Source of the DNA: Fibrobacterota bacterium
GTDB lineage: Bacteria; Fibrobacterota; Fibrobacteria; UBA11236
Length of the DNA stretch: 63,085 nt
Assembly (NCBI GenBank): GCA_019509785.1
Contig: JAEKLQ010000057.1
Span: 1-63,085, forward strand
Reading direction: 5' to 3'
Positions within the stretch are counted from its first letter, which is position 1. Every line of letters begins with the position of its first letter. Positions 31,235-42,418 of the stretch are shown piece by piece. The notes beneath the pieces were generated by a model, which saw nothing but the letters and a program-made list of their open reading frames with translations, was not told the origin of the DNA and searched no databases. Made by a program: the position numbers and the translations under genes.

Positions 31235-31738
31235 CGTTCCGGGCGGAAGCGATTCCGCCCCCTCTGCTCCTCGACCGCCTCGAACGATTTCCGGACCGGG
31301 AGACGGAACCCCGCCGGACCGCAGGCGCGGGTCTGCGGGGTGGATCGGGCGCGAAAACTGGGACGGCGGGGCCGGGTCTCCTGGCCGCTGAGTTGCGAGC
31401 GCCCGCGGCTTGGGGAAGGGTCCGAACGCTTCTACAGAAAGCCCGCGCCAGCCGGCGCGAGACCCACAGTTCGGTTCGCGGGCGTACCTTCCCCAAGCCG
31501 CGAAAAGACAGCGCTAGTGGCCAGCGAGCATCCGAAGCGGCACGGAGCCCCGGCACCGCCAGACCCAAACCGAAGCGCCCGCTCCACCCAGCAGCCCCGC
31601 GCCAAGCGAAACGCGCGGAGGACCCAACGCTACCCGCGGACGATTTTTCGCGGCGGCCAAACGCGGCCAAACTCTTGCATTCTTTTCCATTCCTTCTTAA
31701 ATTTCCCCATCCCAAGAGACGAAAAGAAGACGCGCGAC
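31235..31738. other. Gene-free region holding structured repeat copy 1
   Basis: No protein frame with a plausible start and codon pattern is seen in this 504-nt gap. Its centre is the 182-nt structured repeat at 31372-31553. The flanks are very GC-rich, apart from an AT-rich end just before the small membrane-protein gene. The stretch before the repeat shares short matches with the matching side of copy 2, so the true element may extend 80-90 nt further left. Confidence 0.7.
31372..31553 (+). ncRNA. Structured repeat, copy 1 (putative ncRNA or hairpin element)
   Basis: Four nested stems can be drawn. P1 is 31372-31389 with 31536-31553 (18 positions, three imperfect). P2 is 31404-31419 with 31487-31502 (16 bp, perfect). 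P3 is GCCCGCG 31441-31447 with CGCGGGC 31477-31483. P4 is GACC 31461-31464 with GGTT 31473-31476. The P3-P4 core (CCAGCCGGCG, then GAGACC, an 8-nt variable loop, GGTT) is nearly identical in the copies at 41145-41329 and 41492-41669. P2 has entirely different bases in each but stays paired. Whether it is transcribed is unknown. Confidence 0.7.
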
Positions 31739-40995: not shown

Positions 40996-41144
40996 CGTTT
41001 CGGGTCCGCCGGGAAATGTCAGCAGGGCGCGTCGGGCCGGGGGCGGGGCTTTCTTTTCGCGCGCTGGATTGGGGCGACCGCAGGTTGTGCGGTCCGCGGG
41101 CGGGCCCGGACCGGGAGCGCGCCTTGGACTCGGCCCGGACGTCC

Positions 41145-41329
41145 CCGGGGCTCCGTGCCGCCTCGGATGCTCGCTCGGCGATAATTGGGTCTGTTCACGG
41201 GCTGGAGAAGGTTACGCCCGCGCAACCAAGGTATCGGTCTCTCGCCGGCTGGCGCGGGCTTTCGATTCCCTGGATCAGAATCCTTCTCCAGCCCGTGTGC
41301 GCTCGCAACTCGGCGGCCCGGAGCCCCGG
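41145..41329 (-). ncRNA. Structured repeat, copy 2 (putative ncRNA or hairpin element)
   Basis: On the minus strand P1 is 41329-41312 with 41162-41145 (17 of 18 bp). P2 is 41297-41282 with 41211-41196 (16 bp, perfect, CACGGGCTGGAGAAGG type). P3 is 41259-41253 with 41222-41216, and a GACC/GGTT stem lies inside. The core is almost identical to copy 1, whereas P2 has different bases that still pair. In P1 the copy 1 pairs GCT/AGC become GCC/GGC. These compensated changes argue that structure is selected. Confidence 0.7.
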
Positions 41330-41491
41330 GGCCGCCCTCTCCGTGGCCGGGCGCGATCCCGGCCCGGACCCGACCGCTCTTCGCGGCCTGAGGCGTGCCG
41401 GGGATCCGATCGGGATCGTTCTTCCTCCCCGCGGAAAGTTGCTGGCGCAGATGACCGGACATCGATGGGGGGCGGAGCTGGCCGGGACGGG

Positions 41492-41669
41492 GGGTCCGGC
41501 GCGGCGAGTTAAAGCGGAAGATGGTCAGGGGAAGCGCGCTGGACTAAGGGAATTGCTGGCCCGCGGCAGCCGGCGAGAGACCGGCAGATTGGTTCCGCGG
41601 GCGTCCCCTTCCCCTGGCCATCAGGCGATTCGGAGCACCGGCTAGCTTTAGTCGAGCCTCGCCGGACCC
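41492..41669 (+). ncRNA. Structured repeat, copy 3 (diverged)
   Basis: P1 is GGGTCCGGCG 41492-41501 with CGCCGGACCC 41660-41669. P2 is 41520-41534 with 41608-41622 (15 bp with one G-T). P3 is GCCCGCGG 41559-41566 with CCGCGGGC 41595-41602. P4 is GACC 41579-41582 with GGTT 41591-41594. The core CAGCCGGCGAGAGACC matches copy 2, while P1 and P2 have unrelated bases but stay paired. It is the most diverged of the three. Confidence 0.66.
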
Positions 41670-41698
41670 ACCGGCACGGCCAGACCCACCTCAAATGT

Positions 41699-42418
41699 TC
41701 AGGGAATCTGCGCCAGCAACCGAGTCGCGTCGAAGGACTCGCGGCTCTCGGGATAGGCCTTCACCAGCTTTTGCGCGGTGGCCTTTTCCTTTTCGGTATT
41801 CTTCAGTTCGCGGTAGCAGAGAGTCAGCTTCCACAAGGCGTTGGGCACCGAGGGCGCCAAATCGACTTTCTCGTGGCCGGCCACCTTCTCTTCGGGATTC
41901 CCGGTCCGCTTGCCGAATTGGGAGACCAGCTTCTCGAGGGTCTCCGTGGCCAGGGCGTAATTCTTGTTTTGGATGTAGCAGGAAGCCAGGCCGTGCAAAG
42001 CGCCGGAGGAAACCAGGGGCTGATCCGTATTGCCGCCATCGATTTGCGAGAAGGACTTGATGGCGTCATCGTACTTGGCTTTGGCGTATTGGACCTGGCC
42101 CAGCATCAGATTGGCCTTGTCCTGAACCAAGCGCGAGTGGCTGGCTTTCACGAAGGCGTTGAGGAAGCTTTCCGTCGAATCGTACTTGTCCTCGCTGAAG
42201 TAAATGTAGGCCTTACCCAGCTCCTTGTTTTCTTTCGCTTGGGATTGCAGGCGATCGCCGTTCCACCATACCCCGACGGCGATGACGACCGCGATGGCCA
42301 AGAGGAGGTAGGAGGTTTGCTTGCCGAAGCGGGGCCAGAAAACGTCGAGGAACCATTCGACCAAACCGGCTTCCTTATCCGGTGCCTTGGCTGCCTGGTC
42401 TTGCTTGAAAAGGTTCAT
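41699..42418 (-). CDS. Membrane-anchored TPR protein (YfgM/Tol-Pal-like tetratricopeptide)
   Basis: The ATG at 42418 (MNLFKQDQAAKAPDKEAG) has GAGG upstream; the frame stays open further upstream but overlaps the divergent phosphatase gene there. The 239-residue product has one membrane helix (about residues 37-54, SYLLLAIAVVIAVGVWW). A periplasmic TPR domain follows, with units such as AYIYFSEDKYDSTESFLNAF, YAKAKYDDAIKSFSQI and ASCYIQNKNYALATETLEKL. This matches YfgM-type ancillary chaperones of the Sec translocon in layout only; other TPR scaffolds look alike. Confidence 0.75.
   Translation of the reverse strand: MNLFKQDQAAKAPDKEAGLVEWFLDVFWPRFGKQTSYLLLAIAVVIAVGVWWNGDRLQSQAKENKELGKAYIYFSEDKYDSTESFLNAFVKASHSRLVQDKANLMLGQVQYAKAKYDDAIKSFSQIDGGNTDQPLVSSGALHGLASCYIQNKNYALATETLEKLVSQFGKRTGNPEEKVAGHEKVDLAPSVPNALWKLTLCYRELKNTEKEKATAQKLVKAYPESRESFDATRLLAQIP

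Follow-up and report, generated by a model that had tools for sequence, protein, structure and literature searches.

The window, a stretch of 63,085 nucleotides of DNA, carries three copies of a large structured hairpin. The family to which they belong is a real one of considerable size, confined to a single genus as far as the searches went. Its anatomy was observed in aligned copies; beyond this we infer, with slightly less than even confidence, that the family is a genus-specific, non-autonomous REPIN/MITE-like element that acts as a folded single DNA strand, that its innermost helix (P4) and tip are read by a protein, and that two neighbouring copies (a doublet) are the two ends of one unit. 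The small palindromic repeats of other bacteria appear to have a new relative in this family. A structured RNA is a serious competitor and the chief rival to the DNA reading.

Anatomy and extent of the family

The anatomy was derived from 78 aligned copies, with the strand reading GAGTTGCGAGC ... GCCCGCG ... CGCGGGC ... GCGAGCATCCGA taken as the sense strand. The alignment showed an outer stem of ~20 bp (P1) and a stem of ~16 bp (P2), separated by an internal loop of several types; the first type is GAGTTGCGAGC / GCGAGCATCCGA, with tandem G-A pairs, and the second is GCGGA, with Watson-Crick pairs at the same place. Inside P2 lie a short hairpin at the junction (P3), then P4, whose arms GCCCGCG/CGCGGGC are nearly invariant, and then the tip. 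Tips fall into class A (CAGCCGGCGAGAGACC N8 GGTT, the class of the window copies), class B (CTCTTCAAATG), class C (GACGGGATCAGGC...GCCGTCG...CTTT) and further classes. The initial annotation had taken CAGCCGGCG..GAGACC..GGTT as part of a nearly constant core; this sequence is present in the window copies but is one of several tip classes, and the universal core of the family is P4. The features of the window copies are as follows.

31366..31566, + strand: copy 1, whole hairpin from P1 to P1' (covariance-model core 31382-31544)
31390..31400, + strand: copy 1, conserved internal loop GAGTTGCGAGC, 5' side, tandem G-A with 31524-31535 (from sequence and alignment)
31404..31419, + strand: copy 1, P2 5' arm CGCGGCTTGGGGAAGG (from sequence and covariation)
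31441..31447, + strand: copy 1, P4 5' arm GCCCGCG, near-invariant (from sequence and covariation)
31448..31476, + strand: copy 1, tip of class A, CAGCCGGCG.GAGACC N8 GGTT (from tip comparison)
31477..31483, + strand: copy 1, P4 3' arm CGCGGGC (from sequence and covariation)
31487..31502, + strand: copy 1, P2 3' arm CCTTCCCCAAGCCGCG (from sequence and covariation)
31524..31535, + strand: copy 1, conserved internal loop GCGAGCATCCGA, 3' side (from sequence and alignment)
41130..41346, - strand: copy 2, whole hairpin (core 41154-41319), left member of a divergent doublet
41025..41129, - strand: copy 2, long conserved 3' extension ending in GGCCCGACGCGCCC, immediately upstream of the uvrB promoter region
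41472..41692, + strand: copy 3, whole hairpin (core 41498-41664), right member of the doublet
41014..41022, no strand: possible target-site duplication AAATGTCAG, uvrB side (weak, single case)
41693..41702, no strand: possible target-site duplication AAATGTTCAG, TPR-gene side (one indel; weak, single case)

The positions, strands and core that had been given for the three copies were all found in the sequence. Pairing between arm and partner is perfect for the P2 arms CGCGGCTTGGGGAAGG and CACGGGCTGGAGAAGG, as claimed, and includes one G-T for the third, GATGGTCAGGGGAAG. The proposed outer stem is also present, but the element is bigger than the ~180 nt first described, P1 adding ~20 bp to give a hairpin of ~200-220 nt. 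Folding with single-stranded DNA parameters against dinucleotide shuffles gave z-scores of -5.0, -6.7 and -5.7 for copies 1, 2 and 3, and for each copy 0 of 200 shuffles were as stable as the real sequence. The neighbours are ordinary: copy 1 is flanked by phoH on one side and a 67-aa ORF / tRNA-Val/Asp on the other, the 3' end of copy 2 points to uvrB, and the 3' end of copy 3, CAGACCCACCTC, adjoins the stop codon of a TPR gene.

The genome from which the window comes (G000) was compared with five congeners (G001-G005). Blastn of copy 1 against its own genome showed 16 places. A covariance model built from eight copies (R1) found at least 36 copies in G000 and at least 12, 4 and 3 in three congeners, and a model built from 62 copies (R2) found at least 47 in G000 and at least 20, 5, 4 and 1 in four congeners, numbers that come from scoring a limited set of preliminary candidates in each genome and in which decayed copies are under-counted as the search method favours intact ones. 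The description as a three-copy family therefore gave way to a much larger one, the proposed covariance-model search having returned many further copies in the genome and its congeners and not an empty result. No element was found in G001, the sixth genome of the genus, among the candidates scored with R2, and no copy was found in 162 other genomes of the phylum searched with the covariance model under Infernal's stricter filters. Phages and plasmids gave no match by blastn, and viral contigs gave no match to two tip patterns. A scan of GTDB genomes with the B tip gave 21 matches; because none was confirmed by the covariance model, the scan provided no relative outside the genus. Comparison with Rfam returned only tRNAs at the gathering cut-offs and the copies had no match even at E 10, in agreement with the initial annotation, which did not recognise the element as RNase P RNA, tmRNA, SRP RNA, 6S RNA or a riboswitch. 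None of the outcomes set out beforehand as refuting the observation was obtained. Several G005 contigs end in or beside an element (L185 on G005:C52, L087 at the end of G005:C241 and L090 on G005:C45), so the element seems to break assemblies and the copy numbers are probably underestimated.

A length of 300-400 nt is reached by some copies, for example 41145-41329(-), which have an additional outer stem and a 3' end with the conserved sequence GGCCCGACGCGCCC. This end precedes a -10-like site of the following gene by a few bases at window positions 41025-41060 and at L056, L057, L058, L080, L068 and L073, and the distance from model end to start codon in long-type copies is near-constant (171-179 nt in four). 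The long-type element may be part of the promoter of the next gene. A second conserved 3' motif, TTTAGAGTGCGCC..GGCGCCC, was seen between element and neighbouring gene at L062, L068, L083, L089 and L091. At L087 (~240-370; G005, upstream of uvrB), a nested insertion of ~115 nt with GACAAT on both sides lies in the internal loop of the element, and a similar arrangement was seen at L083 before 4608.

Covariation and the folding molecule

Standard pairs made up 95.2% of cells in the 78 copies, compared with 69.8% when the 3' letters were shuffled and at most 43.3% when partners were slid; the absolute percentages are optimistic because the alignment follows the model and intact copies are found preferentially. 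Double-change cells numbered 641, against 176 in the shuffled and at most 128 in the slid controls, and were spread over 31 of the 34 pairs, and the covariation score was 0.630 against 0.170 and at most 0.120, respectively. The compensatory change reported from three copies is thus borne out on a larger scale: structure is kept while stem letters turn over. As a natural data set the 78 copies are a large one, and nearly all of their stem pairs have been replaced with the shape kept.

Such strong covariation, together with the conserved loops, also favours a structured non-coding RNA family, trans-acting or protein-binding, in which each copy would give its own small transcript and doublets would be divergently transcribed twins whose tips share specificity. 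We regard this as a genuine possibility, though on balance less likely than not. Mismatches counted by helix bear on it in both directions. P4 and the inner helices contain 13 G-T and 0 A-C mismatches, and tandem G-A pairs occur on the sense strand only; these two observations indicate that one strand folds. Both are points in favour of the RNA, and the sense-strand wobble, which fits RNA too, counts against the DNA-strand reading. P1 and P2, on the other hand, contain 27 G-T and 31 A-C mismatches, whereas control tRNA stems of the same genome contain 25 G-T and 1 A-C. Fisher's test gave P 0.0003 for short versus long helices and 6e-6 for tRNA versus long stems, with related copies not representing independent events. 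Counting by helix thus refined a first impression that wobble was lacking throughout the stems. The symmetric spectrum of P1 and P2 looks as if it had been left by DNA-level maintenance (cruciform or template-switch correction) and is unlike that of RNA selection in tRNA. The existence of two mismatch spectra, differing by helix, makes it testable whether covariation is a sign of RNA structure, DNA structure or template-switch repair.

Other results also stand against the RNA. The RNA folding energy was better on the sense strand in 22 of 62 copies, so that this strand is not favoured, while the DNA folding energy was better there in 41 of 62, favouring it slightly. TATAAT-like sites upstream of copies numbered 16 against 15.6 expected, showing no enrichment, and no A+T-rich promoter zone was found upstream. 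No promoter-like sites were found for the window copies, and for each of them the terminator-like matches fall either on its antisense strand or beyond its ends. The lack of an Rfam match and of a fixed orientation to neighbouring genes adds to these points. The initial annotation had left the choice between a structured RNA and a hairpin DNA recognised by a protein; the conserved structure stands, and the evidence leans to DNA, there being no tRNA-like G-U excess in the long stems, no promoter or terminator signal and no fixed gene orientation.

According to published reports, hairpins can arise and be maintained through template switching, which also homogenises their arms (PMC8794818, PMC8604942). 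The covariation could be mainly mutational, with template-switch (quasipalindrome) correction keeping the arms complementary without selection and the elements being inert palindromes. The symmetric, wobble-poor mismatch spectrum of the two long stems agrees with this explanation, but nearly all copies conserve asymmetric internal loops, which the same correction would also erase; moreover, P4 is near-invariant and tips are class-specific despite synonymous saturation between species, and matching doublet tips (see below) are left unexplained. We therefore consider it improbable as the main cause. Template switching alone cannot explain the conserved loops and tips, but it may well contribute to P1 and P2.

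In the REPIN/MITE-like reading that we prefer, the sense strand would function as folded single-stranded DNA, for instance at the replication fork, and P4 and the tip would be the sequence-specific recognition site of a structure-reading protein. Helicity alone would be required of P1 and P2, whose complementarity would be kept at the DNA level, probably aided by template-switch correction between the arms, while the loops and P4 would be held by selection.

Doublets, placement and history of the copies

Sixteen pairs of neighbouring copies, with 179-570 nt between model ends, were found; all 16 have the divergent order (minus then plus), with no pair in any other configuration inside 1.2 kb. 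The mean tip similarity within doublets was 0.404, whereas random copies from the same genome scored 0.104 and shuffled partners 0.148, and 0 of 2000 permutations reached the observed value against either. P1, P2, P3, loops and linker of doublet members showed no likeness above that of random copies. By our own reading of the classes, the tips clearly match in only 11 of 17 doublets, a point against the REPIN/MITE-like reading. At the uvrB locus, the G000 tips are A/A, and the G005 copies beside the orthologous genes, which are split over two contigs, are of another class; this G005 pair has 45 of 46 tip letters identical and is 61% alike in the rest, indicating that both tips changed together. 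The matching tips point to class-specific protein recognition of folded DNA (or RNA), and under the preferred reading one protein would recognise both, the doublet forming a single unit with two ends. Single copies are as intact as doublet members (pairing 0.939 and 0.933, respectively), and no signal of decayed partners was found beside them.

According to a simple gene caller based on codon usage, all 78 copies are intergenic, the loci themselves being 82% coding. The sense 3' end lies a median of 83 nt from the nearest gene and the 5' end 414 nt, a closeness that would suit transcription terminators or other cis elements of neighbouring genes. However, the gene edge that the 3' end faces is a start in 44 cases and a stop in 33, leaving the sense strand without a fixed relation to its neighbours, no T-run follows the stem, and at L081 and L095 an ordinary terminator (AAAAAAGGCGCC..GGCGCC) lies between element and gene; a cis element of this kind is very improbable. 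Orientation showed no bias with respect to local GC skew (11 of 26; underpowered). The genes that recur beside copies are only syntenic ones, and a shared neighbour gene was therefore rejected as an autonomous partner. The initial annotation was right that no transposase or nuclease gene adjoins any copy.

Comparison of flanking genes showed positional orthology for many copies, across two to four species. Three G000 doublets are also doublets in G005, one of them also in G004, and the window doublet has two G005 copies as its counterpart. Two to four species share single copies, whose orientation to the orthologous gene agreed in every case compared, and 9 of 10 copies of G002, G003 and G004 lie at places where G000 has one. 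This conservation of position and orientation, and the purely intergenic placement, also agree with the structured RNA. At fourfold sites of uvrB, G000 is only 44-59% identical to the other genomes, implying that the structure has outlived synonymous saturation; copies are ~55% alike on average outside the tip, with the structure kept. In most cases positional orthologues resemble each other little more than random copies do. Copy 2 shares 84% identity with another copy within G000 and 60% with its G005 counterpart, suggesting homogenisation within genomes or refilling of sites. No element is present at the uvrB site in G001-G004 or at the phoH site in at least three of these genomes, indicating that copies have been gained or lost over time. 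In G002, a different inverted-repeat family (GTCGGGCGTCGGGCG ... CGCCCGACGCCCGACG) was seen at L124 (upstream of uvrB) and L187 (downstream of phoH). With the element in G000 and another repeat in G002, the uvrB and phoH spots may be insertion-tolerant.

Old copies are retained and not decaying, which suggests a present use to the host; speculatively, they might, like REP/BIME elements, be sites on the chromosome to which proteins bind. MITE remnants do not usually stay in place past synonymous saturation, and this retention counts against the REPIN/MITE reading. The copies could instead be a new class of paired, structure-encoded chromosomal elements, that is, divergent hairpins with tips that must match and change class together, read as folded single strands by a structure-specific protein and kept vertically as host loci, not as transposon remnants. 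We hold this to be unlikely but not negligible.

Partner enzymes and known systems

REP, REPIN and BIME elements, the partners of RAYT (TnpA-REP, Y1 HUH) transposases, are multi-copy extragenic palindromes with inverted doublets, a single-stranded DNA hairpin thought to be read by a protein, and species-specific classes (PMC3116915, PMC3733652). The element resembles them in its many extragenic copies (78 of 78 intergenic, at least 47 in G000) and inverted doublets and, under the preferred reading, in a protein-read hairpin of single-stranded DNA. Unlike REP, it is about ten times longer (200-400 nt versus 20-40 nt), has a three-way-junction anatomy, matches its tip classes within doublets and has singles that are not decayed. 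The Y1 transposase (PF01797) is absent from G000 and G002-G005 and present only in G001, the genome without the element, and RAYT was accordingly rejected as the partner. The REP/MITE-like alternative of the initial annotation fits the anatomy best but lacks, in every carrier genome, the enzyme that defines REP. Because that enzyme was tested for and not found, the family is classed with intergenic palindromic repeats and not as a REPIN.

Like MITEs and ERIC/IRU, the element is a non-coding, intergenic, dispersed, imperfect palindrome of 100-400 bp that is missing at some orthologous sites. It differs from them in having no clear terminal inverted repeats or target-site duplication, in keeping its structure at ~55% sequence likeness and in being conserved in position beyond synonymous saturation. 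Only one candidate target-site duplication was found, at the uvrB doublet, and none was seen by eye at the other ends inspected.

HEARO / omega RNAs are repeated, dispersed structures of ~200 nt with covarying stems, features that the element shares. In contrast to them, it matches nothing in Rfam, HEARO among the families compared, and has no adjacent nuclease, and the genus lacks any PF07282 protein. The TnpB-type nuclease (PF07282) was found in 0 of 6 genomes of the genus, so a guide RNA of a TnpB system, one form of the guide-type RNA that had been offered as an alternative, is excluded as far as PF07282 detects TnpB.

In integron attC sites, one strand folds, the stems are free in sequence and the terminal structure is variable. 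The element is similar in its one folding strand, sequence-free stems and variable tip, but it has no cassette arrays and the distribution of the integrase does not follow it. Integron integrase exceeded the NCBIfam cut-off in G001-G004, including the element-free G001, and not in G000 or G005, which carry most copies; IntI was rejected as the partner on this basis. The integrases above the cut-off lie at L190-L193 (G002, G003, G004 and G001, respectively), which suggests chromosomal integrons in the lineage of the genus.
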